Shown here piece after piece: positions 44,758-63,999 of a stretch of DNA of 64,000 bases. Location of the stretch: assembly GCA_002243285.1 (NCBI GenBank), contig CP022585.1, positions 3,150,641 to 3,214,640 of the forward strand, in the 5' to 3' direction. The DNA comes from Candidatus Fluviicola riflensis. GTDB lineage: Bacteria > Bacteroidota > Bacteroidia > Flavobacteriales_D > Crocinitomicaceae. Each line of letters opens with the position of its first letter. The stretch's first letter is position 1. Both the position numbers and the translations under genes were made by a program. The notes under the pieces were generated by a model. That model was not told where the DNA came from, ran no database searches, and was given only the letters and a program-made list of their open reading frames with translations.

Positions 44758-45759
44758 GTGAAAAACGCGTGGTTGTATTGTTTACTCGTGCTGTCTGTTC
44801 CGTTTTGGGGACATGGTCAGGATATTCACTGGTCGCATGTAAACCGGCAGCCACTTTATCAGAATCCCGGGAATACAGGCTTATTCGTGGGTGACATCCG
44901 AATTACCGGCAATTACAAAGATCAGTGGCGCCAGGTAAGTGTTCCTTTTTCAACGTTTGCAATAGCCGGCGATGCCAAGTGGAAAGCCAAAGATTTAAGC
45001 GGTGGTTTACTGTTTTTTTACGACCAAGTGGGCGATGGAACGTTCAAAACCTTCGAGCTGCAGGGTTCGGTTGCCAAACAACTGAAATTGAGTTCCGATT
45101 CGATGCATTGTCTTTCCGTGGGTTTGCAATTCGGGATGAATCACCGGCAGATGAACACGAACGCGTTTTACTTCGATAATCAATTCAATGGTATCAATTT
45201 CGATCCGACGCTTCCCAGCAACGAAGTCTTCGCCAACGATGCTCGCACCAATATTTCGGCAGCAACCGGAGCTGTTTATTCGTGGAATCGAACAGCCAAC
45301 GAGAAACTAACCGCGGGAATTGCAGGATTTAACCTCAACAGGCCCAACCAGGGATTTTACGGACAAAAAATCCCCCGCGACAGGCGTCTGAGCGTGTTTG
45401 CCATTTACGAAAAACCAATCAATACCGACTGGACTATTTTACCCGGATTATCGTTTAATATGCAGGGGAAATACCGCGAGTTATTGGTCGGCGGACAAGG
45501 ACGTTATACACTTGTTAACCGCCTGGGAACGTATCGTGCTGTCGACGGTGGAATCTGGTTCCGCAGCCGCGATGCGATTATCATTCGTGCCGGAGTTGCA
45601 ATCCAAAACTGGTCGGTAGCGCTTAGTTATGACACTAATATTTCTAAACTTACACCTGCGAGTAACCTTCGCGGCGGTTTGGAGTTATCAGCACATTACA
45701 TCATTACCCGGTTCAAGCCGAAAAACACCATTCACCGCGTATGTCCAGACTATATCTGA
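44758..45759 (+). CDS. PorP/SprF-family type IX secretion outer-membrane protein
   Basis: A 333-residue outer-membrane barrel. Signal peptide MKNAWLYCLLVLSVPFWGHGQ, then DIHWSHVNRQPLYQNPGNTGLFVGDIRITGNYKDQWRQV, the standard PorP/SprF start, with further strands (GGLLFFYDQVGDGTFKTFELQG) and the usual aromatic end. In T9SS organisms these proteins bind PorE/SprE-type partners or surface anchors. The start is a GTG at 44758, the first codon that gives a complete signal. It overlaps the OmpA-type gene by 19 bases, so both form an operon. Confidence 0.92.
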   Translation: MKNAWLYCLLVLSVPFWGHGQDIHWSHVNRQPLYQNPGNTGLFVGDIRITGNYKDQWRQVSVPFSTFAIAGDAKWKAKDLSGGLLFFYDQVGDGTFKTFELQGSVAKQLKLSSDSMHCLSVGLQFGMNHRQMNTNAFYFDNQFNGINFDPTLPSNEVFANDARTNISAATGAVYSWNRTANEKLTAGIAGFNLNRPNQGFYGQKIPRDRRLSVFAIYEKPINTDWTILPGLSFNMQGKYRELLVGGQGRYTLVNRLGTYRAVDGGIWFRSRDAIIIRAGVAIQNWSVALSYDTNISKLTPASNLRGGLELSAHYIITRFKPKNTIHRVCPDYI

Positions 45760-47993
45760 TTGGTTTATTTTCGCTGCTTTCATGGGGAAGTATTGCTCAG
45801 AATGAATTGGGGAAATACCTCGAATTTGCTGATCAGCAATACCAGAAAGGCGATTACATCTACGCATTGACGTATTACGAAAAAGCGATGGAAATCGATT
45901 CCAATTCGGTGAGCATCCTCTGGAAATATGCCGAAACCCTGCGCGCTTACAAAGATTACCGCAAAGCTTCTTATTACTACGAAAAAGTCTATAACAAAGA
46001 AGAAGCAGCCATTTATCCGTATAGCTTGTTATACTGGGCGCTGATGGAAAAACAAAACGGCCATTATGCAGAAGCAATCGAATTGTTTAAACGCGCTAAA
46101 AAGAAATACGCTAAAAACAAAAAAGATTACACGTATCTCAAAACCAAGCGCGAACTCGAATCGTGTTTGTGGGCGCAATCTGCCTTGAAAGATACAATGG
46201 AGATCAACTCGCTGAAATTACCGGAAGGTTTAAACACTGTCAATTCGGAATTTGGCCATGGTTTTGTTGATTCGCTGTTTTTGCTTTCTTCGCTTCGGGC
46301 CGATTCGGTTGGCGGGAACGAGGAAATTTACGATCCGTCCTACACCAACCAATTGTATACCTTCCCCATTCATGATTCTACTTCGGTTTCGTTACAGGCC
46401 GAACGGATTCAGGCGCTTTCTCAAGCCGGATTTCACACAGGAAACGGAACTTTCAGCCTCGACGGAAAACGTTTTTATTTCAGTCAGTGTACCGGCGACG
46501 AAATGCAGTTCAATTGTCAAATCGCCGTTTCACGTTACAGCAATGGAAAATGGTCGAAACCGGAATTGCTGGGTGATATCATCAACGAACCCAATGCCAA
46601 TACCACCATGCCTTCTATTGCTTTGTTCGAGAAAGAAGAAGTGCTGTTTTTCGCCTCCAATAAAGAAGACGGAAAAGGCGGAATGGATTTGTATTTCTCG
46701 ACGATCAAAAACGACGGAAATCAATTCGGAAAAGTACGCGCCGTTCCGAAAGTAAATACCATCGATAATGAACTGGCGCCGTGGTATGATTCAAAAGAAC
46801 AAAAACTTTACTTTGCTTCATCCTGGTGGAATGGATTTGGTGGTTATGACGTTCACTTTTCGCCGATGATCAACGGAAGTTTTGCCGAAGTGGTCAATGT
46901 TGGACTTCCATTCAATAGTCCGGCCAATGACCTGTATTACTTCGAAAAAGGCGATTCGGTGTTTGTTTCCAGTAACCGTCTGGGGGTGGAATACGCCAAA
47001 AACCCGACTTGCTGCAGCGACATTTTTGCTTACGCACCGCCGGTTGTGATCATTCCCGAAACCAAGATCGAAACACTCATCGACTTGAACAGACGATTAC
47101 CGGTGACACTTTATTTCCACAACGACGTTCCTGATCCACGCTCGCATGAAACTACGACAAGAGTGAATTATACAGACAGTTACGACAATTACGTGGCGAT
47201 GATTCCCGAATACAAAAAGGAATATGCCAAAGGCCTTTCAGGTGATCGTGTTATTGAAGCTGAAGAAGATATTGAAAGTTTTTTTACCGAATATGTGGAG
47301 CAAGGTGTGCGCGATTTACAATTGTTTAAAACCTTGTTGTACGAGGAACTTCAAAAAGGATTCCGTATTCGGATCAGTGTGCGCGGTTTTGCTAGTCCGC
47401 TGGCAAAAACTGACTACAACGTTGCGCTTACCAAACGACGGATCGCTTCATTGGCAAATCACCTCAAAGCATGTGATGGCGGCATTTTCGCTCCATACCT
47501 GGATGGAACTGCACTCAACGGCGGAAAGCTGGAAGTAGTCGGCGTTCCTTTCGGAGAATACACGGCCGACCAAATCACGAGCGATAATCCGAATGATTTG
47601 AAAAACTCGGTTTTCTCAAGAGCTGCCGCGCGTGAACGTAAGATCGAAATTCAAAGCGTAAGTTACCTCGACACCGATAGCCTGTTCTTTTTGGTAGATG
47701 TGGAACCTACTTCCATTGTTTTAGGGAAAATCAGTACAACTGCTTCGTTGAATAAAATATTTTCGGTGTACAACACAAGTGGTAATCCGCTAACGATCCA
47801 AAAAGTGGTGGTGCAAGATTCATTATTCCAGGCGCGGTTCAATCCGGTGATCGGTGTTTCTAAACGTAGTGAGATCACTATTTCTCCCGTAAAACCATTG
47901 CCTACCGGAATTTTCTCATTACCAATGGACCTTTATTTCGAAGGATTTGAAAAACCTATTCGGGTGATGATCCTCGGTGAAGGAACCAATTAG
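45741..47993 (+). CDS. PorE-like OmpA-family protein with TPR and beta-propeller parts
   Basis: A 750-residue exported protein (MSRLYLIGLFSLLSWGSIAQ signal). TPR-like repeats come first (about 25-130, QQYQKGDYIYALTYYEKAMEID), then beta-propeller blades (about 230-430, FSLDGKRFYFSQCTGDEMQF, IALFEKEEVLFFASNKEDGKGGMDLYF, LAPWYDSKEQKLYFAS), then an OmpA-type peptidoglycan-associated domain (about 535-650, RISVRGFASPLAKTDYNVALTKRRIASLANHL). An extra beta domain of about 100 residues follows. In the OmpA domain the usual GHTD is GFAS while the Arg is kept, so peptidoglycan binding may be altered. Such proteins link PorP/SprF barrels to the cell wall. Confidence 0.85.
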   Translation: MSRLYLIGLFSLLSWGSIAQNELGKYLEFADQQYQKGDYIYALTYYEKAMEIDSNSVSILWKYAETLRAYKDYRKASYYYEKVYNKEEAAIYPYSLLYWALMEKQNGHYAEAIELFKRAKKKYAKNKKDYTYLKTKRELESCLWAQSALKDTMEINSLKLPEGLNTVNSEFGHGFVDSLFLLSSLRADSVGGNEEIYDPSYTNQLYTFPIHDSTSVSLQAERIQALSQAGFHTGNGTFSLDGKRFYFSQCTGDEMQFNCQIAVSRYSNGKWSKPELLGDIINEPNANTTMPSIALFEKEEVLFFASNKEDGKGGMDLYFSTIKNDGNQFGKVRAVPKVNTIDNELAPWYDSKEQKLYFASSWWNGFGGYDVHFSPMINGSFAEVVNVGLPFNSPANDLYYFEKGDSVFVSSNRLGVEYAKNPTCCSDIFAYAPPVVIIPETKIETLIDLNRRLPVTLYFHNDVPDPRSHETTTRVNYTDSYDNYVAMIPEYKKEYAKGLSGDRVIEAEEDIESFFTEYVEQGVRDLQLFKTLLYEELQKGFRIRISVRGFASPLAKTDYNVALTKRRIASLANHLKACDGGIFAPYLDGTALNGGKLEVVGVPFGEYTADQITSDNPNDLKNSVFSRAAARERKIEIQSVSYLDTDSLFFLVDVEPTSIVLGKISTTASLNKIFSVYNTSGNPLTIQKVVVQDSLFQARFNPVIGVSKRSEITISPVKPLPTGIFSLPMDLYFEGFEKPIRVMILGEGTN

Positions 47994-48090: not shown

Positions 48091-51000
48091 TCAAATATTC
48101 TCTAAATCCGCCTGGCGCATGCCGCCAAAGAACTTCACAATTTTTTCTCCCACACCGGGCACTTCCACATGAATGATGTAAACACCGCTCGATATCGGGA
48201 TTCCATGTGAATTCTTCAAATCCCAATCGACCGAAGTGATCTGGTTATCCTTTTTAAAAGTGCGAACCAACTTACCGCTCACGTTGTAAATCGTAACCGT
48301 ACATTGATCAGGCAGGTTCGTTATTTTCACACGATTGTCCAAACGCGAGCGTTCGTATTCAGAAAACGCGTAATACGGATTCGGAACCACATTGATCAGA
48401 TCCAGCACACTAGCCAGTTGTTCCTGGTTCGCTGTGGTTGTTTTGATGTCATCCATACTCCAGCCATACATCGGTTTCCCACCGTTTAAGTTTGTTGCAA
48501 CGCGATCTTTGTACTCGCGGTTGACATGTACATTGATCGTCACGTCGGTTTCACGTAAATCATGTCCCGGACTCAATACCGGATTGGCAATCCACATCAA
48601 ACTCTCGAATAAATCACCGTAAGACGCTGTTGTAGCGGTTGTGTATTGATCATACACCCAATCGTTTGCACCATCGTAATAAGGAGTCGGTGTAAAAAAA
48701 CCGCCATTTCCAACTTCAGTACCGAAAACATAAATCGGATGTTGTCCACCCATAACCGGAATGCCATTTTCATCAACGATAGTCTCGGTTGGATTCCATT
48801 TCATGTCAGCCCCGTTTTCACCACCAAGGAACGAATTCTCGCCAAATGCCAGGTGCAAACGTGCTCCGGTTTCCAGATCAATTGCATAACCCGGGAACCA
48901 GCTCATTCCCATCGTTTGGGTTACCTCGCTGGCATTGTATCCAGGATCATCCAATTTTCGACCGGCTTTATCAACTGATGGTGATTTACGCAATTCGCCC
49001 GGTTTTCCACCACCGGCATTCAGGTTTTCATCACGCCCGAGTTCAACAACCACACAACGTGTCCATTTTGATTGATCATTCGTAATAACCAGCTTAATAC
49101 TTGGCAGGAACGAAATACTGGCCCGTGCACGTGATCCGGAGAACGAAGAAAAGTTCTCAGGGTACGCCAACGGCATAAAGTCACATTGGTAACCTGTTAC
49201 ACGGTGCGGTGCAATTCCACCACCCAATAATTTGCTGTATTGCTCCTTTACATCTTTTCCAACCTCGTCTCTATAACAGCACGGATTCAGATAATCCGGT
49301 GGTAAAGGATCGCATTCCGTGGCCTGATCGGGTGAATAAGTCCCCGTTCTGATCCAGTTGGTCGGGAATAGCTGCGCATCATCTTCTACGAACCGCAGCC
49401 ATCGCTTTGACGAATCGGCAAATGTATACGAAGAAGAAATCGGATCAGTATATTTTAAAGTTTCATTACCTCCATTTCCGATAAAATAGTGTTGCTTCTG
49501 GTAAATCTGTACCGAAACACCCCATTTCGGGATCAGTTGTTCGTTGTCAATGGCAATCGTGGTTTCAGAACTTACCGAATCCAAGAGTTGTCCGTCTTTT
49601 TCATCGTATTGATAAATCACCCAACCAGCTGTATCGATATCAGAATAGTTGCGGAATTTACATTGGAAATACCCCCCCGCAAGATTCAGCGGATCAATCA
49701 CTTTAACATTGATCGGCCCGCTGCCGTAATCGTATTCGGGATCTTCCATGTAGCCATTAGCGACAATTTCATTCTCGGATGCAGACGTCAAGCGCAAAGC
49801 ATTATTTCCGTTTCCGAAACCGTCGAGTCGCGTGATTCGTGGCGTTTGACCGTAAGTTGCACTTTGAATGGTACCACCCAATTCAGGTGAAGGATTGTGC
49901 GGAACGGCCGCGGCGGCGATCAAAGGAGTTCCATCGGCATTGATGCGCGAACGCAGATACGGTTTTTTCTGACCATCCAGCTTTGTTGCATCGTTCGGGT
50001 CGTAATCCTTAAAATTGTTATAACCATAAGCTACTGCGAGGTAATAATAGCTTTTGTGATTCACCAGGGTTCGCGATCCGCTCGCAAACAAGTCTTCTGT
50101 GATGCGGAATGTATGTTGAATTCCTTCATCGGCTCCGTCTACTTTTTCAACCGGAATAGAATATTTCAGGTCTTCGTCGTATTCAAAATTCACCAATCTA
50201 CCTATACCATTTTCCACATCACACTGAGCTACCAGGCGTGCTTTGGTTTCGTCGCCCAAATCGGTCACCGACACTTCATCGCTGCGCAATTGAAAGATCT
50301 GGTAACCTTCGAATCGGTAGAAACGGTCGGTAAAAGCAGGATCGATATTGATTTTATCTTCCTCAATGTAATCTTCCTGTTCTTTTCTGTAATTGTTTGA
50401 AAGGCCTTTCGGATTGTCGAGCATCAGTATCAATTCATTGTTCAGTTCCTGGATTGTCAACACCGGCGCATGAGGTGGTTCCATAATGCGGAAACAATTA
50501 TCAAACAAGGCTTGTGCTTTTGTATCTGCCGTTTTCAAAGCATCAACAGAAGCAAAAATACTTCCTTCGTTGCTGCGGGCAAATACGATCCCAACTGTAA
50601 TATTATTCACCGCTCCCGGACGCAATGTAAACGGTCCTGCAGATTGTACAAAACGACGGTCGCCTGATTGTGTACTGGCACCACCATTTCCCTGCGGATC
50701 AAATTCCGACCAGTCAAACCCGGGGTTATTCCCTTGTGTTCCCCAATCAAACGGATCTGAATCAGCAGGAAACATATAATCGGCTGGCATATTAGGCAAT
50801 CCTCCGGGCGAGGAACCAATTCCTGTTCCTCCGTAAACCATCTCATCATTGAAACGCCATAATCCCTGCATGTAATTATAGAATTGCAGCGCACTTTCGG
50901 GATCCGATTGTGCTTGCGGGCCATTTCCGGTATAGTACACAAAACGACGCATTCCAAAACGTTCGTTGTCGGCAACACCGTCTCCGTAACCGATTCCCAA

Positions 51001-52278
51001 CCCCGGATAAACAATTCCTCCGGCGGCAATAGCCATAGCTGTTCGCAATGAAGAATCGCCTGTAGTGATCAACGGATTATCTACTCCGTCAGGATCCTGG
51101 TAAGGCCCTTCAAAAAAGTCGATTCCCACTGCCGGTGGATTTTGTCCATATCCTACTCTTCCCGATTGTGTTTCGTCATTTAAGTCACCGTTGTAGATGT
51201 ATCCCAACCCACGGCTCACATCACAACCAGCATAATCATCTGCGTTTCCACCCAAATCCACATCGGCGTATTGTGAGAAATACGTATTGTGCAAGGTTTG
51301 TGTTCCGCGGTTAATGAGTTCATAATTGAAAAAGGTCATTTTATTGATCTCATCATCAGTCGCAAAAGAGAAGGCTTGCGCCCTGATTTCCATTCCGATG
51401 CCCGCTCCACCTGATTCGGTGTGAATATTTCCCTTATCGTTGAATACCCACCAATGTGTTTCGTCACCGTACAGTGAAATCCTTCGGTCAACACCGCATT
51501 CAATGTCATCGTGTCCCAGGATATCATCATACCACGGGTAATCGCCATCCGCCGGATCGTAAACCAAATCCTGATTGCGGTCATAATAAGGCGCCAGGAA
51601 CGGGTCCTGGTTCAACGTTGTATTTCCGTTTCCGGGCCAGGCATTGATCCGCGCCATGACCTCATTGTCGGGCATATCGATTTCTGCACAAGCCACCGGA
51701 TCAGCGACGGGAATATTACTCGGATCACATTCCCACCAGGTAATAAATGCAATGACTTCCGCCTTGCGAATGGTAAAAATATTGTCGTAAGTAGCACAAA
51801 CCAACGGATCTATGTTTCCATCACCGTAGTCACGACGTGCGCCATCACCCTGTGGAATCAATGGCGTATAATTACCACTTCCGGAATTGACGGTCAATGG
51901 GCCGGGCCAGAAATCGTTTCCATCCGATCTGAATTTTACGGCAGCAATTTTTAACTGCCCGTTTGTGTCCGTGCCTCCAATCCACAATGACGCAGCATAA
52001 ATAGCCGTTGCATCGCCCGTTTTGGGGACTTTGTAGGTCGCTACGTTATTCGCGCGGTCCAGAAATAAGAGTCCGCCGGTTTCCAATTGACAGCTTACAT
52101 CGTTAAAATCCATCGTAAGCCGGTAATTGGCCGGAGCGCAGTTAGCACCACGTGTCTGAGCGACCGGTTTGTTGGAAATGCCTGATTTGCTCTTTCCATG
52201 ATCATCGTTGTAACCGAGCACAGCGGTGACCGACAACAGGAATACCCCTGTTGTTACAAGTTGTAATATCTTTCTCAT
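48091..52278 (-). CDS. Very large secreted protein with a T9SS-like C-terminal tail, paralogue A
   Basis: A 1395-residue protein. N-terminal signal MRKILQLVTTGVFLLSVTAVLG, then the conserved GKSKSGISNKPVAQTRGANCAPANYRLTMDFNDVSCQLETGG. The body has repeated acidic/aromatic segments such as DQDLVYDPADGDYPWYDDILGHDDIECGVDRRISLYGDETHWW, with no enzyme motif I recognise. The C-terminal 95 residues start VVPNPYYAFSEYERSRLDNRVKITNLPDQCTVTIYNVSGKLVRTFKKDN and run like a type A sorting domain (WDLKNSHGIPISSGVYIIHVEVPGVGE), then add KIVKFFGGMRQADLENI. The paralogue at 56854 has the same length. Function unknown; surface display or secretion is inferred. It stands without receptor or PorV neighbours. 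Confidence 0.78.
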   Translation of the reverse strand: MRKILQLVTTGVFLLSVTAVLGYNDDHGKSKSGISNKPVAQTRGANCAPANYRLTMDFNDVSCQLETGGLLFLDRANNVATYKVPKTGDATAIYAASLWIGGTDTNGQLKIAAVKFRSDGNDFWPGPLTVNSGSGNYTPLIPQGDGARRDYGDGNIDPLVCATYDNIFTIRKAEVIAFITWWECDPSNIPVADPVACAEIDMPDNEVMARINAWPGNGNTTLNQDPFLAPYYDRNQDLVYDPADGDYPWYDDILGHDDIECGVDRRISLYGDETHWWVFNDKGNIHTESGGAGIGMEIRAQAFSFATDDEINKMTFFNYELINRGTQTLHNTYFSQYADVDLGGNADDYAGCDVSRGLGYIYNGDLNDETQSGRVGYGQNPPAVGIDFFEGPYQDPDGVDNPLITTGDSSLRTAMAIAAGGIVYPGLGIGYGDGVADNERFGMRRFVYYTGNGPQAQSDPESALQFYNYMQGLWRFNDEMVYGGTGIGSSPGGLPNMPADYMFPADSDPFDWGTQGNNPGFDWSEFDPQGNGGASTQSGDRRFVQSAGPFTLRPGAVNNITVGIVFARSNEGSIFASVDALKTADTKAQALFDNCFRIMEPPHAPVLTIQELNNELILMLDNPKGLSNNYRKEQEDYIEEDKINIDPAFTDRFYRFEGYQIFQLRSDEVSVTDLGDETKARLVAQCDVENGIGRLVNFEYDEDLKYSIPVEKVDGADEGIQHTFRITEDLFASGSRTLVNHKSYYYLAVAYGYNNFKDYDPNDATKLDGQKKPYLRSRINADGTPLIAAAAVPHNPSPELGGTIQSATYGQTPRITRLDGFGNGNNALRLTSASENEIVANGYMEDPEYDYGSGPINVKVIDPLNLAGGYFQCKFRNYSDIDTAGWVIYQYDEKDGQLLDSVSSETTIAIDNEQLIPKWGVSVQIYQKQHYFIGNGGNETLKYTDPISSSYTFADSSKRWLRFVEDDAQLFPTNWIRTGTYSPDQATECDPLPPDYLNPCCYRDEVGKDVKEQYSKLLGGGIAPHRVTGYQCDFMPLAYPENFSSFSGSRARASISFLPSIKLVITNDQSKWTRCVVVELGRDENLNAGGGKPGELRKSPSVDKAGRKLDDPGYNASEVTQTMGMSWFPGYAIDLETGARLHLAFGENSFLGGENGADMKWNPTETIVDENGIPVMGGQHPIYVFGTEVGNGGFFTPTPYYDGANDWVYDQYTTATTASYGDLFESLMWIANPVLSPGHDLRETDVTINVHVNREYKDRVATNLNGGKPMYGWSMDDIKTTTANQEQLASVLDLINVVPNPYYAFSEYERSRLDNRVKITNLPDQCTVTIYNVSGKLVRTFKKDNQITSVDWDLKNSHGIPISSGVYIIHVEVPGVGEKIVKFFGGMRQADLENI

Positions 52279-55680: not shown

Positions 55681-55764
55681 ATTCATTAACTTTTGTTCGG
55701 CTATATATAACAACAAGAGAGCCCATTGGACTCTCCTGTTAAGCAAATATAACGTTTTTCGGTA

Positions 55765-56829
55765 TTATTTCAAACTGATTGTTACACCAAATGTATGAAC
55801 AACTCCAAATTTACCAGCTAAGCGCATAGCATATTGTAAGCCTAATGCAGATTTGTTTTTACCTACCAGTGCATCGGCAGAAAAACCTGCTGTCAAACCA
55901 GACATAGCGTTCGCCTGGTTGTCTGCATCAAACATTTTACGTTCGATTACATAGCCTGCACGAACGTTAAACGCTGCCTTTTCAGTTGTCATTCCATAAT
56001 CCAAACCAATACGGTACTGATCATACTGGAATGAGTTAGCTGAAAAACCTAAAGCTGCGATCAACTTATTGTTTTCATTAAAGATGAAATCGTAAGATCC
56101 GCCGATATTCAACAGAGAAGGCAATTCATACGTCGCAGAGCGTTGCTCAAGCGTAGCAATATTACCGTCATTCAAATAGTTGATTTCAGTAGACAAACCA
56201 TCACCTTTGTAACGCATTACAGGACCAACATTTTTCAATGCAATACCAAATTTAACCTGGTCTTGCTCACCTGTCACATAACGGATTCCTGCATCAAATG
56301 CAATCCCGTTTGCTTTCAGGTTGGAAATGTTTTCACTGATTACTTTGAAGTTAACTCCACCATAAATACTGGACGAGAAACTACGTGCGTACCCTAAGTT
56401 GAAAATATTCATACGCGGGCTGAAAACCCCGATTCCACCTTCAGGAAGATCTACGGTAGTTACATCGATATCCCCAAAATTTAATGATTGGATGGAAACC
56501 GCGATTACACTTGACTCGGAAACGCGTTGTGCAATACCTGCACTGCTCAAACCGATTCCTGCGCCGCCTAACCAGTTGGTGTAGTCGAATTTGATTTGCG
56601 TTTTATCCGTAAATGCCAATCCGGCAATATTGGTAAACGTTGCCTCTAATCCATTTACGTGAGAGATTCCCGCGTCACCGATAGCAGCACTTCGTCCCCA
56701 GGGATTGATTAGCAGTTGAGAAGCGCCGGCAGAACCGACACGATCTTCATTTCCGGCGAAGAGCCCGGAGCAGCTCAATACTGCTCCGGCAACTGCCGTA
56801 TATTTTAAGATTTTATTCATTCTTTTCAT
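55765..56829 (-). CDS. PorV/PorQ-family outer-membrane protein
   Basis: A 354-residue outer-membrane barrel. Signal MNKILKYTAVAGAVLSCSGLFAG (M4 at 56820; M1 at 56829 adds three residues). The family pattern is visible: SAGASQLLINPWGRSAAIGDAGISHVNGLEATFTNIAGLAFTDKTQIKF, with later strands GYARSFSSSIYGGVNFKVISENIS and FGIALKNVGPVMRYKGDG. PorV-type barrels shuttle T9SS cargo from the translocon to the attachment complex. It starts 24 bases after the second large secreted protein in an operon with it. Confidence 0.9.
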   Translation of the reverse strand: MKRMNKILKYTAVAGAVLSCSGLFAGNEDRVGSAGASQLLINPWGRSAAIGDAGISHVNGLEATFTNIAGLAFTDKTQIKFDYTNWLGGAGIGLSSAGIAQRVSESSVIAVSIQSLNFGDIDVTTVDLPEGGIGVFSPRMNIFNLGYARSFSSSIYGGVNFKVISENISNLKANGIAFDAGIRYVTGEQDQVKFGIALKNVGPVMRYKGDGLSTEINYLNDGNIATLEQRSATYELPSLLNIGGSYDFIFNENNKLIAALGFSANSFQYDQYRIGLDYGMTTEKAAFNVRAGYVIERKMFDADNQANAMSGLTAGFSADALVGKNKSALGLQYAMRLAGKFGVVHTFGVTISLK

Positions 56830-56853
56830 AGTCTTTGCTTAATGAAGTAAAGA

Positions 56854-59800
56854 TTAAATATTCTCTAAATCGATCTGTCTCATTCCACCGAAGAACTTCA
56901 CAATTTTCTCTCCGACACCCGGCACATCCACATGAATAATGTAGATACCGCTTGAAATCGGAATTCCTTTTGAATTCTTCAAATCCCAGTCAATCGAGGT
57001 AACCTGATTGTCTTTCTTGAACGAACGGATCAACTTACCGCTTACGTTGTAAATGGTAACCGTACACTGGTCAGGAAGATTTGTGATTTTCACACGGTTA
57101 TCCAAACGGGTACGTTCGTATTGAGAGAATGCGTAATAAGGATTCGGAACAACATTAATGATGTCCAACACGCTCGCCAATTGTTCCTGGCTTGCAGTAG
57201 TCGTTTTGATATCATCCATACTCCACCCGTACATTGGTTTACCCCCGTTATCGTTGGTAGCGACCCAGTCTTTGTACTCCTTGTTAACGCGAGCTTTGAT
57301 TGTTACACCAGTCTCCAACAGATCATGACCTTCGGACAAAACAGGATTGATAATCCATGTAAGGCTTTCGAACACATCACCATAAGATGATGTTGTAGCT
57401 GTAGCATATTGATCGTAAACCCAGTCATTGCTTCCATCATAGTAAAGTGACGGTGTTTGGAAACTTCCGTAACCAACTTTGTAACCATAAATGTAGATCG
57501 GATGCTGACCACCCATTACAGGTGTTCCGTTGTTGTCTACGATATTAGATGTAGGGTTCCAGATCATGTCTGCACCGTTTTCACCACCCAAGAAGGAGTT
57601 TTCACCAAATGCCATGTGCAAACGAGCACCTGATTCAAGGTCAATTGCATAACCAGGGAACCAGCCCATACCCATAGGTTGGGTAACTTCACTTGCATTG
57701 TAACCGGCATCACCTAATTTCCTGCCGTTTTTGTCAACAGAGGGAGATTCACGTAATTCACCTGGTTTACCACCACCAACATTCAGGTTTTCGTCACGGC
57801 CAAGTTCAACGATCACACAACGTGTCCATTGAGACTTGTCGCTTGTAATCACAACGTCAACACTTGGAAGGAACGAAATACTTGATCTTGCTCTTGAACC
57901 AGAGAAAGATACGAAGCTTGCAGGGTAAGCCAATGGCATGAAATCACATTGGTAACCAGTTACACGATGCGGAGCCATACCACCTCCGAGCAATTTACTG
58001 TACAACTCTTTCGGATCTTTTCCAACCTCGTCGTTATAACAGCATGGGTTCAAATAATCATCCGGAAGCGGATCACATTCTGTTGTTTGATCAGGAGAAT
58101 AAGTTCCTGTACGGATCCAGTTTGTCGGGAACGTTTGTGCATCATCCGGCACAAAAGACAACCAACGCTTGGATGAATCTGCAAATTCATACGAAGAAGA
58201 GATCGGATCGGCGTACTTGGCAGCCTCATTACCTGAACCTGATGGAATATAATGCTCATTTTGATAAATCTGAACCGAAACACCCCATTTTGGAATGATT
58301 TGCTCGTTGTCATTTTTGATCGTAGTCTCAGAAGTTGCCGAGTCAATCACACTTCCACCTTTTTGATCATAACGGTAAATCACCCATGAAGCTGTATCGA
58401 TATCCGTATAGTCACGGAATTCACACTCGAAGTAACCACCAACAAGGTTCAATGGATCTACAACTTTAACGTTGATCGGTCCACCTCCGTAATCATACTC
58501 AGGATCTTCCATGTAACCGGTAGAAAGGATTTCGTTGGTTGAAGCTGTTGTCAGTTCCAACGCATTGTTTCCGTTACCGAATCCATCCAAACGCGTGATA
58601 CGCGGTGTTTGTCCGTAAGTTGCATTTTGTATTGTACCACCCAACTCAGGAGCCGGATTATGTGGTACTGCAGGCATCGCCAACAATGGTGTTCCATCCG
58701 CATTGATACGGGAACGTAAGTAAGGCAATTTCTGTCCGTCAAGTTTGGTTTGATCGTTCGGATCGTAATCCTTGAAATTGTTGTAACCGTAAGCTACTGC
58801 AATGTAGTAGTAAGTCTTATGGTTTACCAACGTTCTTGAGCCACTGGCGAATAAATCTTCCGTAAGACGGAATGTGTGACGAATACCATTGTCTTCACCA
58901 TCTACCTTTTCAACAGGAATCGAGAATCCAAGTTCTTCATCAAACTCAAAGTTTACCAAACGATCTACTCCGTTTTTAACATCACACTGTGCTACCAAAC
59001 GTGCTTTCGTTGCATCCTGAATATCGGCAACAGTAGCCTCATCATTGATCATTTGGAAAATCTGATATCCTTCGAAACGGTAGAAACGATCTGAGAAACT
59101 AGGGTCGATATTAATTTTATCTTCCTCAATATACTCCTCGTTCTTATTGTTTGATTGCGACGGGTTATCCAACATCAGGATCAACTCATTATTCAATTCC
59201 TGGATAGTCAACACAGGAGCGTGAGGTGGTTCCAAAATACGGAAACAGTTATCAAACAAAGCCTGAGCTTTTGTATCGGCACGTTTCAAAGCATCTACAG
59301 AGGCGAAGATACTTCCTTCATTACTACGTGCAAACACGATACCAACTGTAATGTTGTTTACCGCACCCGGACGCAATGTAAAAGGACCGGCAGATTGAAC
59401 GAAACGACGGTCACCTGCAGGGTTACTAGCACCACCATTTCCTTGAGGATCAAATTCTGACCAGTCAAATCCAGGGTCGATACCTGCAGTTCCCCAATCC
59501 AATGAATCGGAATCACCAGGGAACATATAGTTTGCCAAAATAGTTGTTACACCGGAAGAAGGGCTGAATCCTGTACCACCATAGTAAGAATTGTCGCCAA
59601 AACGCCAAACACCTTTCATGTAGTTGTAGAACTGAGCAGCACTACTTGGATCTGACTGAGATTGAGCAGCGTTACTTGTATAGTATTTAAACAAACGCAT
59701 ACCGTAACGCTCGTTATCAGCGATACCATCACCGTAACCGATACCCAAACCTTTGTATACGATACCTGTATCTGCAATTGCAGCAGCAACTGTTGGAGTT

Positions 59801-61041
59801 GTAACGATACCAGTAATCGGATCTGTTACAGGACCAACGTTATCTCTACCGTCAGCATCCTGGTAAGGACCTTCAAAGAAGTCAATTCCAAGTGCCGGAG
59901 GGTTTTGCCCATATCCTACTCTACCTGATTGAGTTTCGTCATTCAAGTCACCATTGTAGATATATCCTAGTCCACGCGTAACGTCACAACCAACGTAGTC
60001 ATCATTGTAGTTACCCAAATCAGCATCAATATATTGTGCAAAGTAAGTGTCATACAATGTTTGTGTACCACGATTAATCAACTCGTAGTTATAGAACGTC
60101 ATTTTATTGATCTCGTCATCGGTTGCAAAAGAGAAAGCCTGTGCTCTGATCTCCATACCAATGGCTTGACCACCTGATTCAGAGTGAATATTTCCTTTAT
60201 CGTTGAATACCCACCAATGTGTATCATCACCAAACAAAGAAATACGACGGTCAACACCACATTCGATATCATCACGTCCAAGGATGTCATCATACCACGG
60301 GTAATCACCATCCAATGCGTTGTAATACAAATCCTGATTACGGTCATAGTAAGGAGCCAGGAACGGATCCTGATCCAAAGTAATGTTCCCATTACCCGGC
60401 CACGCGTTGATACGAGCCAATACTTCGTTATCCGGAGCATCTACTTCATCACATCCTTCGAAATTAGGATTGAACGGATTGGGATTATTACATTCCCACC
60501 AGGTAATGAATGCTACAACTTCAGCTTTACGAATCGAGAAGATGTTATCGTAAGTTGCACACACAGCAGGATCAACGTTGGCGTCACCATAATCATGTGT
60601 TGTATTGTCAGCTTGTGGCACCAACGGATTGTAGTTACCAGAACCGGCGTTTGTAGTTAACGGGCCAGGCCAAAAGTCATTACCATCCTGACGGAACGTA
60701 ACCGCAGCCAGTTTAAGCTGACCATTTACATCTGTACCACCCATCCAAAGTGACGCTGCGTAGATCGCAGTCGCATCACCTGTTTTAGGCACTTTATAAG
60801 TCGCAACACCATTTGCACGGTCAAGGAACAAAAGTCCTCCCGTTTCCAACTGACAACTCACATCATTGAAGCTCATTGTCAGACGGTAGTTTGCAGGAGC
60901 GCAGTTGGCACCCCGCGTCTGAGATACAGGTTTGTCCTGAATCCCTGATTTGCTCTTACCGAAGTTTTCATTGTAACCAAAGACCGAGCTTATGGTTAAC
61001 ATCGCAACTCCCAGCGTTAAAAAATTTATTTTTCGTTTCAT
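56854..61041 (-). CDS. Very large secreted protein with a T9SS-like C-terminal tail, paralogue B
   Basis: A 1395-residue paralogue of the protein at 48091-52278, with identical length and obvious close similarity along its whole length (for example GNCAPANYRLT region, ILEPPHAPVLTIQELNNELILMLDNP, YGQTPRITRLDGFGNGNNAL). Signal MKRKINFLTLGVAMLTISSVFG. The C-terminus ends IISSGIYIIHVDVPGVGE-type, followed by KIVKFFGGMRQIDLENI. No catalytic motif seen. It sits 18 bases after the TonB-dependent receptor and 24 bases before the PorV-like gene. Codon choice differs from copy A (for example CCT, GCA and GGT where A has CCG, GCG and GGC). Function unknown. Confidence 0.8.
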   Translation of the reverse strand: MKRKINFLTLGVAMLTISSVFGYNENFGKSKSGIQDKPVSQTRGANCAPANYRLTMSFNDVSCQLETGGLLFLDRANGVATYKVPKTGDATAIYAASLWMGGTDVNGQLKLAAVTFRQDGNDFWPGPLTTNAGSGNYNPLVPQADNTTHDYGDANVDPAVCATYDNIFSIRKAEVVAFITWWECNNPNPFNPNFEGCDEVDAPDNEVLARINAWPGNGNITLDQDPFLAPYYDRNQDLYYNALDGDYPWYDDILGRDDIECGVDRRISLFGDDTHWWVFNDKGNIHSESGGQAIGMEIRAQAFSFATDDEINKMTFYNYELINRGTQTLYDTYFAQYIDADLGNYNDDYVGCDVTRGLGYIYNGDLNDETQSGRVGYGQNPPALGIDFFEGPYQDADGRDNVGPVTDPITGIVTTPTVAAAIADTGIVYKGLGIGYGDGIADNERYGMRLFKYYTSNAAQSQSDPSSAAQFYNYMKGVWRFGDNSYYGGTGFSPSSGVTTILANYMFPGDSDSLDWGTAGIDPGFDWSEFDPQGNGGASNPAGDRRFVQSAGPFTLRPGAVNNITVGIVFARSNEGSIFASVDALKRADTKAQALFDNCFRILEPPHAPVLTIQELNNELILMLDNPSQSNNKNEEYIEEDKINIDPSFSDRFYRFEGYQIFQMINDEATVADIQDATKARLVAQCDVKNGVDRLVNFEFDEELGFSIPVEKVDGEDNGIRHTFRLTEDLFASGSRTLVNHKTYYYIAVAYGYNNFKDYDPNDQTKLDGQKLPYLRSRINADGTPLLAMPAVPHNPAPELGGTIQNATYGQTPRITRLDGFGNGNNALELTTASTNEILSTGYMEDPEYDYGGGPINVKVVDPLNLVGGYFECEFRDYTDIDTASWVIYRYDQKGGSVIDSATSETTIKNDNEQIIPKWGVSVQIYQNEHYIPSGSGNEAAKYADPISSSYEFADSSKRWLSFVPDDAQTFPTNWIRTGTYSPDQTTECDPLPDDYLNPCCYNDEVGKDPKELYSKLLGGGMAPHRVTGYQCDFMPLAYPASFVSFSGSRARSSISFLPSVDVVITSDKSQWTRCVIVELGRDENLNVGGGKPGELRESPSVDKNGRKLGDAGYNASEVTQPMGMGWFPGYAIDLESGARLHMAFGENSFLGGENGADMIWNPTSNIVDNNGTPVMGGQHPIYIYGYKVGYGSFQTPSLYYDGSNDWVYDQYATATTSSYGDVFESLTWIINPVLSEGHDLLETGVTIKARVNKEYKDWVATNDNGGKPMYGWSMDDIKTTTASQEQLASVLDIINVVPNPYYAFSQYERTRLDNRVKITNLPDQCTVTIYNVSGKLIRSFKKDNQVTSIDWDLKNSKGIPISSGIYIIHVDVPGVGEKIVKFFGGMRQIDLENI

Positions 61042-61059
61042 ACAAGTTCATTTAATGTC

Positions 61060-63999
61060 TTAGAAATCAAACTTAACCCCTAAGCGAATTGTTCTTGGAG
61101 AACTAATATTAAAAGGATTCTGAACTTTCATAGCGTAATAATCTCTGAAAGACTGCTCATCCAATTGGTTTTGGATTGATGTCTGGTACTGCGCTGCCGC
61201 AAGATATCCATCATCGTTCCAGTTACCTGTAGCTCTGTAAACACCAAGAACGTTCATTTGGTTCAAAAGGTTGGTAGCACGAATGTAAACATTCAAGAAA
61301 GTTGTTTTTTTCTTTCCTTCTTTACCAAAATCGATGTTGAATGTGCGGTCTAACTGAATATCCAAACGGTATTGCCAAGGGAGACGGGAACCGTTTGTTG
61401 TACCTGTCAAACCAGCAGTATTCGGAGAAATGAGCCCTTCACCAGTGATGTCATTCTGAGCAGAGTATGGATTTCCTGAATAAATATTTGTCAGGATATT
61501 CAAACCAGTGTTTTCAAAGATTTTCGCATCACCGATCATTGGACCATTGTAGTCAGCTCCTTCACCATAACGGTAATCCAACGAGATTGCGAAAGCGTGA
61601 CGTTGGTCATACGAGTAAGGGAAGATGTTTCGCAGGTTAGGAAGTCCTGCATTGATCAAACCTGAAGCAGATGTTGCATCAGAACCTGTACCGTCAGCAA
61701 ACTGTAATGTGTAGGCAGCTGTCATCCGGATGTTTCCTGTACGACGCATATCGTATGAAACCGTGATTCCTTTTACAGTACCGAAGTCACGGTTACCATA
61801 TGTTTTGTAGGTATTCGGATATGCTTCAAATACGTTGATCAACTGAACGTTGTTACGTTGCTCACGGTAGAACGCTGAGATCTTCAATGAAGATGTTTTT
61901 GTCAATACCTGTTGGAAACCAAGTTCGTAATCAACTGTTTTTTCCGGCAACAAGTTAGGATTGTTAACCACATTCGAACGCGATTCGATGAATTGATAAT
62001 CGATCGGGTTAAAACGTGCTGCTGTTGTAGGACGTTTTGTCAATACATCATAGTGTGCAAAGAAAGACGCCTCATCTGAAATAGGGAAAGAGAACGCGAT
62101 ACGTGGCATCACATTGATTTGCGGCGTGTAATCTTCAAACGCATCTGAAGAGATTGTTTGAGTTGCAGCCGCACCAGGAGTTTTCAACCATGGTGAAATA
62201 CCCGCAGCACCACGAATTGTTTTCGGATCTTCCGTAACAATACCGTTCGCATCATACCATGTATCACCTTCACGGAATCCGTTAATCTGAGTCGGATTGT
62301 TTACATCATTCACATAAACGGTAGCTTCATCAGAAATAGATTCAGGAATCACAACCCAGTCGTAGGTATTAGGATCTGAACTTGCTTTAGCACGTGCTTC
62401 TGAAACATTGTTTGCTGTGTACAACAAATATTTGTCTTTCAACACCGGCTGGTTTGCATCGAATACATCGACACGAACACCAACGTTGAATACGATATCG
62501 TTGAAGGCAAATTTATCCATCGCATAACCGGAAATGTAAACCGGTTGGAAAGCCCCGATGAAACGTTTGTAATTTCCATTTTCATCGTACTCATTAAAGT
62601 ACTTGTCAATATCGGTATTTCCACGAACTTTTTTACCGGTATGGTCATACCCCCAGTATTCAACAAAGTTATTACCTCCGTTAAATAACTCATCTGGAGC
62701 GAACATATCAAAATTGTAAAGGTTCGGATCGTACTGGTCGATGTCGATGAAATCGTTTCCTGCAGGGTTTAATCCTAATTTATTACGTAAGTTATAATCG
62801 AAGAATGTTTGGTTGTCTCCGTTTTTTACACCACCGTATTCTCCTGAGCCCGACGTATAGGCATAACCAGAGTTCAAACGCTCGTAGGTGATTTTCTGGA
62901 AAGATCCTGAATCTGCAACTGTAAATTGTGTTGTATCCAACTCACTGATGTGGAAGTTAGTATACTGACGTGCAATTTCCCAGATACCGATAGGCCCGCT
63001 GTTTCCGGCTGTCCAACCTCTGTCCCAACGTTGTTCGTATTCGAAACCGAGTGAAATTGAGTGATCGCCGATATTTACGGAACCTGAACCAGTCACACGG
63101 AACTGATCGTTCTCTGTTTTCTGGAAATAGTTGTAAGGTGTACCAATGTTACTCCAGATACCGTAAACCGAATTCGGAACATCACCGTTTCTCAAAGCAT
63201 TACCTTGCTGAATTTGCAACAAGTTTTCGTAGTTATCAACCGGATCACCTGCGTAGATATCATAGTACTGAGCCGTAATTGCAGCAAGTGCTGAATTTGT
63301 TTCAGAAGGTGTAAAATCTACCAATACATCACGGAAACCGTTGTGCACATATTGCAATGTTTTGCTATCAAACTCATAAGACGGACGACGTGTTGTTACG
63401 AATTTACCAACGTGACCGTAGTTAAACAGATTGAATTCGTGCTTCGGATCAAACGCGTTAGTTTTCGATTTTGAGAAATCGACCATGATTGAATAAAACG
63501 CTGATTTGATTTTAGAGCTGCTTCCTTCTTCTCTATTGGAGAATCGTTGCGTAAAACGACCATACACACGCCAATCAAGAGTATTTGTTTTACCGAAGTT
63601 GGTAAAGTTCAACAATGAATTGGAGTAAGAATAAGCATTACCATAGTTATAGTTCAATGAACCACCAAACGTAAGATTAACGGATGGCCCAGTATTCACA
63701 TCAATTTTCGCCGAAGAAGAAAGCGTTGTGTTACGGGCATTCATACGCCAGTCTACCTTTTCAAAATCATCTTTACGCAGAAAGCTTGTATTGTGGAATG
63801 TTCCTGTTCCTGTAGATGTAGGGCTTAACGGGTTAGCCAGCAATGCATCACGCACGTCTTTTTTAACACGGTAACTACCTCCATTCAACGGACGGTTGTC
63901 CAATTCATCTGTAAAGTTGGCTGAAAGGAAGAATCCTAAACGCGGTTTTGTTTTTTTACCTGTTGAATCTTTCTGCATCCAAAGCGGACCCGAAATCAA
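61060..63999 (-). CDS. TonB-dependent receptor (C-terminal part, start beyond the window)
   Basis: At least 979 residues of an outer-membrane TonB-dependent receptor; the frame runs off the window edge, so the signal peptide, any carboxypeptidase-like domain and the plug lie outside. The visible part is the barrel: GPSVNLTFGGSLNYNYGNAYSYSNSLLNF, NVMPRIAFSFPISDEASFFAHYD, NPNLLPEKTVDYELGFQQVL, GNIRMTAAYTLQFADGTGSD, RHAFAISLDYRYGEGADY and the aromatic end PRTIRLGVKFDF. It probably imports or handles a ligand in connection with the following giant protein. First in an operon with that protein and the PorV-like gene. Confidence 0.92.
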   Translation of the reverse strand: MISGPLWMQKDSTGKKTKPRLGFFLSANFTDELDNRPLNGGSYRVKKDVRDALLANPLSPTSTGTGTFHNTSFLRKDDFEKVDWRMNARNTTLSSSAKIDVNTGPSVNLTFGGSLNYNYGNAYSYSNSLLNFTNFGKTNTLDWRVYGRFTQRFSNREEGSSSKIKSAFYSIMVDFSKSKTNAFDPKHEFNLFNYGHVGKFVTTRRPSYEFDSKTLQYVHNGFRDVLVDFTPSETNSALAAITAQYYDIYAGDPVDNYENLLQIQQGNALRNGDVPNSVYGIWSNIGTPYNYFQKTENDQFRVTGSGSVNIGDHSISLGFEYEQRWDRGWTAGNSGPIGIWEIARQYTNFHISELDTTQFTVADSGSFQKITYERLNSGYAYTSGSGEYGGVKNGDNQTFFDYNLRNKLGLNPAGNDFIDIDQYDPNLYNFDMFAPDELFNGGNNFVEYWGYDHTGKKVRGNTDIDKYFNEYDENGNYKRFIGAFQPVYISGYAMDKFAFNDIVFNVGVRVDVFDANQPVLKDKYLLYTANNVSEARAKASSDPNTYDWVVIPESISDEATVYVNDVNNPTQINGFREGDTWYDANGIVTEDPKTIRGAAGISPWLKTPGAAATQTISSDAFEDYTPQINVMPRIAFSFPISDEASFFAHYDVLTKRPTTAARFNPIDYQFIESRSNVVNNPNLLPEKTVDYELGFQQVLTKTSSLKISAFYREQRNNVQLINVFEAYPNTYKTYGNRDFGTVKGITVSYDMRRTGNIRMTAAYTLQFADGTGSDATSASGLINAGLPNLRNIFPYSYDQRHAFAISLDYRYGEGADYNGPMIGDAKIFENTGLNILTNIYSGNPYSAQNDITGEGLISPNTAGLTGTTNGSRLPWQYRLDIQLDRTFNIDFGKEGKKKTTFLNVYIRATNLLNQMNVLGVYRATGNWNDDGYLAAAQYQTSIQNQLDEQSFRDYYAMKVQNPFNISSPRTIRLGVKFDF

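Follow-up and report, generated by a model that had tools for sequence, protein, structure and literature searches.

Why should a TonB-dependent receptor, an exported protein of giant size and a barrel of the PorV family stand in one row in a bacterial genome? The question is raised by a stretch of 64,000 nucleotides from Candidatus Fluviicola riflensis (hereafter the window), which covers positions 3150641-3214640 of the complete 4.55 Mb genome. The three genes lie on the minus strand in the order receptor, giant, barrel, and the open reading frames (ORFs) confirm the gaps of 18 and 24 nucleotides given in the preliminary description, which was made from the DNA letters alone. Across Bacteroidota the receptor, the giant and the PorV-like gene are a co-inherited unit, hereafter the triad. 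On balance, we favour the view that their products form a SusCD-like receptor complex, whose extracellular part arrives by type IX secretion and is kept in place by a dedicated PorV-like anchor.

Co-inheritance is seen first in the gene order. A triad was counted as complete when the receptor lay at most 300 nucleotides upstream and the PorV-like gene at most 300 nucleotides downstream of the giant, on the same strand. Testable giants had both ends present and at least 600 bases of flank on each side; of the 164 giants, 25 with missing ends or shorter flanks had been set aside, as had ORFs below 800 amino acids or 80 bits. Complete triads occupy 116 of the 130 testable loci, or 115 of 129 distinct ones, since L022 and L119 are the same. 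They were found in 47 of the 53 testable loci of close relatives (76 loci in all), in 36/37 testable loci of a distant set (one per genus, the best 40 of 116 genera with a match) and in 33/40 loci of a class set (28 taken one per family, 12 chosen for an early-ending match). The median receptor-giant and giant-PorV gaps are 20 and 22 nucleotides in the close set, 39 and 39.5 in the distant set, and 23 and 35 in the class set. The giant stands alone at L018 and L047 of the close set and at L167, L191, L193, L194 and L199, and tandem giant relatives have no partners at L157. At L189 and L200 all three genes are present, with the receptor 1079 and 526 nucleotides away. The preliminary description had proposed that the three genes are inherited together, and had named the lack of a conserved neighbourhood as what would tell against it; the count, once run across Bacteroidota, found the neighbourhood conserved.

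The distribution over genomes gives the same picture. In the class sample, 276 of 346 genomes were matched by a profile of the giant (E 1e-10). In the phylum sample of 392 genomes this profile matched 185, and a profile of the triad-type PorV (E 1e-20) matched 176. Both are present in 171 genomes, the giant only in 14, the PorV only in 5 and neither in 202; the differing thresholds may explain the 14 and the 5. The giant is restricted to genomes with the SprA translocon, which occurs in 319 of the 392 and in all 185 giant-positive ones, and inside these 319 the tally becomes 171, 14, 5 and 129. These numbers count genomes, not independent events, and exact-test p-values for the co-occurrence ignore kinship. 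Within the 392-genome sample, the profile search did not find the giant in G314, G206 and G021, whose SprA are the sample's closest to the solved SprA of Flavobacterium johnsoniae (6h3i; 4894.6, 5075.2 and 4488.4 bits, respectively). Close kin of the usual model organism thus lack the giant, which may explain why bench work has not met the triad.

The co-segregation of paralogues is a third line of evidence. Outside the class, a genome may carry as many as 17 PorV-family genes. Of the PorV-family ORFs, 10/16 in G030 and 12/17 in G341 stand third in a receptor-cargo-PorV triad, one of these triads having its receptor 1630 nucleotides away. When the two genomes are compared for reciprocal nearest pairs, receptor, cargo and barrel each give the same 7. 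Within each genome the distances among the three proteins are correlated (r between 0.62 and 0.85, p at most 0.0004), as estimated from quick trees in these two genomes only. Three genes that segregate together within one genome cannot owe this to the common descent of species. The PorZ model was found in the C-terminal domain of 8 of the 10 scanned cargos (of 22), always far below cut-off, and the general type A model was passed by one of these 10.

The identities given to the three products in the preliminary description were borne out, although the receptor proved to be cut by the window edge and has 1255 residues in full. The first gene codes for a TonB-dependent receptor, recognised by its Plug domain (39.2 bits, cut-off 23.9) that accompanies a CarboxypepD_reg domain (42.6 bits, cut-off 32.3). 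The barrel models had no match in the window receptor; among six other triad receptors scanned, the one of L244 shows both Plug and barrel above cut-off. Two other triad receptors match the SusC/RagA model TIGR04056 in part, with scores under its cut-off.

By its sorting domain the giant is a cargo of type IX secretion, as had been proposed. The type A model TIGR04183 scores 28.2 and 29.0 bits for the two giants of the window (cut-off 23), and the Pfam model PF18962 stays under its cut-off of 27 for both (19.6 and 19.0). Against the equivalog models the giant falls short of PorZ (27.8 of 260 bits) and PorU (18.8 of 420). Both halves were modelled confidently, with a mean predicted local distance difference test score of 93.3 for the N-terminal and 92.2 for the other half. 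The modelled C-terminal domain has the seven-stranded immunoglobulin-like fold of known type A domains. In the fold search its sole solved match under E 0.001 was PorZ (5m11, E 2.5e-6), and a second aligner gave Z 11.0 with PorZ over 90 residues at 2.2 Å and 30% identity. The same aligner placed the mirolase domain (Z 7.7) and the RemA domain (Z 7.0) among many immunoglobulin-like folds. A search of solved structures with the giant profile returned PorZ alone (E 0.044), too weak by itself; the likeness to PorZ is firm because the fold search backs it.

The model of the N-terminal half aligns with sugar-active enzymes (dextran dextrinase, glucodextranase, cellodextrin and cellobiose phosphorylases, GH116 enzymes) at Z 16-18.5 over 234-277 residues, the top alignment reaching Z 18.5 over 256 residues with a root-mean-square deviation of 3.3, and Foldseek gave E-values of only about 0.001 (best 5.8e-4). 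The aligned region of these enzymes is their sandwich domain and not the catalytic part, so binding is the natural guess over catalysis. As a first guess from the modelled super-beta-sandwich, the ligand may be a glycan or glycoconjugate.

The ends of the giants were followed in two other respects. A 13-residue C-terminal tail was considered as a sign of pairing with the private PorV, an idea first suggested by the partnerless L157 relatives, which end plainly. It was rejected, as the tail is absent from 20 of the 22 triad cargos in G030 and G341 and present in stand-alone giants. The only two tailed cargos among the 22 are giants themselves, and the tail marks the giant family. The last tenth of the giants is the best conserved by amino acids in most comparisons, between species too. 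Homogenised sorting domains among copies in the same genome are not general: identity at third bases goes up in that tenth in L012 alone (84%), and in L013 it is high along the whole length. Gene conversion between giant copies is possible in L012 and L013.

The third product passes the PorV/PorQ subfamily model NF033709 (146.7 bits, cut-off 90) and stays under the equivalog cut-offs for PorV (74.7 of 250 bits) and PorQ (80.3 of 220). PorV is its sole match in the PDB at E 0.01 (6h3i_F, E 1.7e-10). A 97-row tree unites the 34 triad barrels in a single group (support 100/99), with canonical PorV and PorQ on the other side. Nor does the gene stand beside porU, as porV does at L159; it follows the giant instead. 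The barrel is not the canonical PorV by either the equivalog score or the neighbour. In addition to this porV, the genome holds porV2 by porU2, porQ (330.4 bits) and a weak fifth gene of the family. Given the pairs porU-porV and porU2-porV2, the pairing of cargo and barrel is a recurring habit of the PorV family. Canonical PorV is kept as a separate gene in 17/17 genomes examined, two of which (G012 and G021) have no triad. The preliminary description had seen a private PorV shuttle here. The dedicated PorV-family gene stands; its product is more likely a carrier that remains in place as an anchor, like PorQ for PorZ or SprF for SprB, than a shuttle that recycles like canonical PorV. Elsewhere in the window, positions 44758-47993 code for a PorP/SprF-family barrel and, overlapping with it, a TPR/OmpA-like protein that is related to PorE and to the CHU_0125 family. 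This is a pair of barrel and wall-anchor for type B cargo, and no type B cargo was recognised beside it.

According to the proposed mechanism, the three genes would make one outer-membrane receptor complex, similar to SusCD in its working and assembled differently. The TonB-dependent receptor would be the energised import channel. The giant would be exported first through Sec and next, via its type-A-like C-terminal domain, through SprA, the type IX translocon. The private barrel would take it at the side opening of SprA, as is reported of PorV and ordinary cargo (PMC10994853). The domain of the giant would escape cleavage by PorU and stay bound to the barrel. Subsequently, barrel and giant would settle on the receptor, and the giant would become the ligand-binding extracellular part over the TonB-powered channel. 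Second giant copies would use the same barrel in trans, and a PorV shared by several giants would agree with the one match that the triad-type PorV profile has in this genome. The export half of the mechanism is well supported by protein family and modelled fold, and co-inheritance suggests the half in which the complex sits on the receptor. Precedents are reported for the separate steps. PorZ and PorU keep their type A domains, anchored by PorQ and PorV (PMC5562754, PMC10202324), and cognate PorV-like barrels have been suggested to protect PorZ-like domains from the sortase (PMC10202324). In F. johnsoniae, dedicated PorP/SprF barrels export and localise type B cargo (PMC12618676; also PMC9143113).

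Several observations weigh against this complex. The physical interaction of giant and receptor is one that we infer. Neither partner is recognised as a member of the SusCD families: the full receptor has no match to TIGR04056 at E 1e-5, and the SusD family is absent from the matches of either window giant at E 0.1. Most glycan-specific SusCD pairs differ from the receptor and the giant, which in Bacteroidia are near single-copy and conserved to an unusual degree. In the second aligner the match of the sorting domain with PorU (Z 8.5) is about as good as the one with an unrelated protease (8jmw, Z 8.4), and Fn3-like folds reach Z 6.9-7.7; a shared fold alone says nothing on function. Partnerless giant relatives exist (L157, L191, L193, L194, L199). 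At L036, L039, L040 and L042 the receptor and giant have no PorV gene behind them. The genomes of these four loci and those of L018 and L047 each have a triad-type PorV at another place, directly behind a giant in four of the six and at the end of a stretch with no visible giant in two; for L036, L039, L040 and L042 this PorV adjoins another giant in both of the two cases with a viewable contig. Finally, triads take up few PorV-family ORFs in G172 (3/12) and G330 (3/13, or 4/13 with a triad split between the stretches L287 and L140), and PorV paralogues therefore do other things too.

Among the other explanations, an envelope-assembly or housekeeping device survives best. Instead of taking part in uptake, the receptor barrel would serve as a scaffold or insertion partner that is energised, and the PorV-like barrel would place the giant as a structural surface protein. 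The high conservation, the mostly single triad-type PorV per Bacteroidia genome and the 67% mean column identity of the receptor all suit such a role, and a FadL-family barrel, BamG, is reported to serve the beta-barrel assembly machinery (BAM) of Bacteroidota under a surface lipoprotein (PMC12578637, PMC12611786). On the other hand, up to 12 diverged triads with different cargos in one genome look like ligand diversification, and the device is not essential, as, at the threshold used, no giant was found in 134 of the 319 genomes with SprA. We regard it as rather unlikely.

Distinctly unlikely is an ordinary type A cargo, cleaved and then released or linked to lipopolysaccharide, with the barrel as a generic extra carrier and the receptor merely co-expressed. 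The sorting domain does pass the type A model (28.2 against 23 bits), and PorV is reported to recognise every type A domain (PMC12618676). Ordinary cargo sits poorly with the phylum-wide gene order, the co-segregation of three paralogues inside one genome or a separate PorV clade in genomes that keep canonical PorV besides. It is very improbable that the PorV-like protein is a FadL-type channel and that the triad imports hydrophobic compounds by two routes. PorV belongs to the FadL fold family (PMC12578637), but the models and the PDB search place this barrel with PorV/PorQ, and the pairing with a sorting-domain protein would be left unexplained. Chance neighbourhood in a gene-dense region, conceivable in a single genome, is refuted by the order kept in 116/130 testable loci.

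If the triads are receptor complexes, they would be an exception to the rule that PorV handles all type A domains. The rule would be broken, and type IX secretion would become an assembly route for receptor complexes. Two fields would then meet, as work on type IX secretion has mostly concerned the export of enzymes, adhesins and virulence factors, and work on the nutrient receptors of Bacteroidota has mostly treated them as channel-lipoprotein pairs. Tentatively, and with somewhat more doubt than for the triad of the window, a Bacteroidota-wide class of energised receptors may be proposed. Each would consist of a TonB channel, a type-IX-exported ligand binder whose PorZ-like domain is retained and a private PorV-family anchor, and would be a lipoprotein-free counterpart of SusCD, and some genomes from other classes would have a dozen paralogues of it. 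The triad makes it testable how PorZ-like domains escape the sortase. The parts and the pairing principles are known, and the literature search suggests that the combination is new: no description of such a triad was found in the literature searched, most subscription papers and preprints lying outside it.

The preliminary description had also noted the second giant without partners, which stands; a third giant, 54% identical, lies elsewhere in the genome beside a PagL-like barrel, and a short relative of 513 amino acids at a fourth place. The nearest relative among named records is the Fluviicola metagenome-assembled genome L011, whose giant is 94% identical. The two window giants and the two of L011 are each other's nearest kin, and by this grouping of sequences the stand-alone copy is a duplicate rather than an independent lineage or a counter-example to co-inheritance. 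In the nearest relatives L012 and L013 a second giant lies directly behind the PorV gene. The L012 record (CP034120.1), a complete genome titled Glaciecola amylolytica, is probably mislabelled, since it has a Fluviicola-type triad and groups inside Fluviicola. In L157 (G267) four giant relatives follow in tandem without receptor or PorV, and at least three end in a plain type A domain. A PagL-like barrel (L088:13063-14867) is followed by a protein of about 245 amino acids, a similar layout recurs at L160:4414-6305, and one of these two arrangements sits directly behind the third giant.

Table 1. Position of the triad genes, their parts and related features. Coordinates refer to the window unless a locus is given.
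Feature	Position	Strand	Remarks
TonB-dependent receptor, first triad gene	61060-63999	minus	979 C-terminal residues in window; ORF reaches window edge
TonB-dependent receptor, full gene	L087:1701-5468 = G000:C1:3211700-3215467		1255 amino acids; extends past window
Giant exported surface protein, second triad gene	56854-61041	minus	ORF of 1395 amino acids
Giant, N-terminal part (about residues 43-603)	59233-60915	minus	Model aligns with super-beta-sandwich of GH94/GH15/GH116 enzymes
Giant, C-terminal sorting domain (about residues 1295-1395)	56857-57159	minus	Predicted type A fold, PorZ closest
Giant, 13-residue C-terminal tail past last strand of sorting domain	56857-56895	minus	Kept within giant family
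Private PorV-family barrel, third triad gene	55765-56829	minus	354 amino acids
Terminator-like hairpin between PorV gene and greA	55711-55741	minus	Consensus match only
Stand-alone second giant	48091-52278	minus	1395 amino acids; 80% identical to triad giant; duplicate common to L011

Downstream of the triad lie greA and then another gene, which we take to be of the HIT family. The scan for terminator-like sites found 10 against 8.7 expected, which makes the hairpin behind the PorV gene no more than a pattern match. Upstream of the receptor, tandem paralogues of 714 and 716 amino acids (L087:10155-14641) have C-terminal ends that are alike and sorting-domain-like; the genes in between are presumably of thiamine type. 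At L036, L039, L040 and L042, two other genes take the place behind receptor and giant, which we assume to be superoxide-dismutase-like and MgtE-like.

The triad resembles several known systems and is identical to none. The nearest in sorting domain is the attachment complex of Porphyromonas gingivalis, where PorZ-PorQ and PorU-PorV are reported as type IX surface proteins that keep the type A domain on a PorV-family holder (PMC5562754, PMC10202324). The domain of the giant matches PorZ best. Unlike that complex, the triad proteins fail the equivalogs, a TonB receptor leads the operon and the unit is not sortase machinery. The PorU2-PorV2 pair (NCBIfam names), present in the same genome at L161 (669.6 and 484.9 bits), likewise joins a cargo gene to a PorV-family gene; PorV2, represented by one row, falls in another part of the tree and passes its own model, and no TonB receptor is included. 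In the type B pairs SprB-SprF and PG1035-PorP, a dedicated barrel directly behind the cargo is reported to export and localise it (PMC12618676, PMC9143113). The triad differs by its type A-like domain, its PorV-family barrel and the TonB receptor in the unit.

BamG-BamH of the Bacteroidota BAM complex also shows a FadL-family barrel that carries a surface protein (PMC12578637, PMC12611786). BamH is a lipoprotein and BamG a partner of BamA, and these descriptions set the two systems apart. Kinship with BAM was considered and not adopted: the triad barrel belongs to PorV/PorQ by model, the comparison with BamG being one of descriptions only.

In the genome of Candidatus Fluviicola riflensis no SusD_RagB match was obtained at E 1e-5, and the organism seems to be without SusCD systems. 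Counts of SusD among 18 genomes include 37 in G021, 27 in G178, 10 in G012, 6 in G030, 1 in G341 and 0 in G330 and G172. An anticorrelation of SusD with PorV-family genes, judged by eye in these 18, is not claimed, as G030 has 6 SusD and many genomes are low in both. With SusCD the triad shares neither the SusC/RagA match (receptor, E 1e-5) nor the SusD_RagB match (giant). The resemblance to SusCD and BtuB-BtuG lies in the general principle of a TonB-dependent channel with a large extracellular partner (PMC12578637), and the difference in the partner itself, which in the triad would be a type IX cargo instead of a surface lipoprotein.

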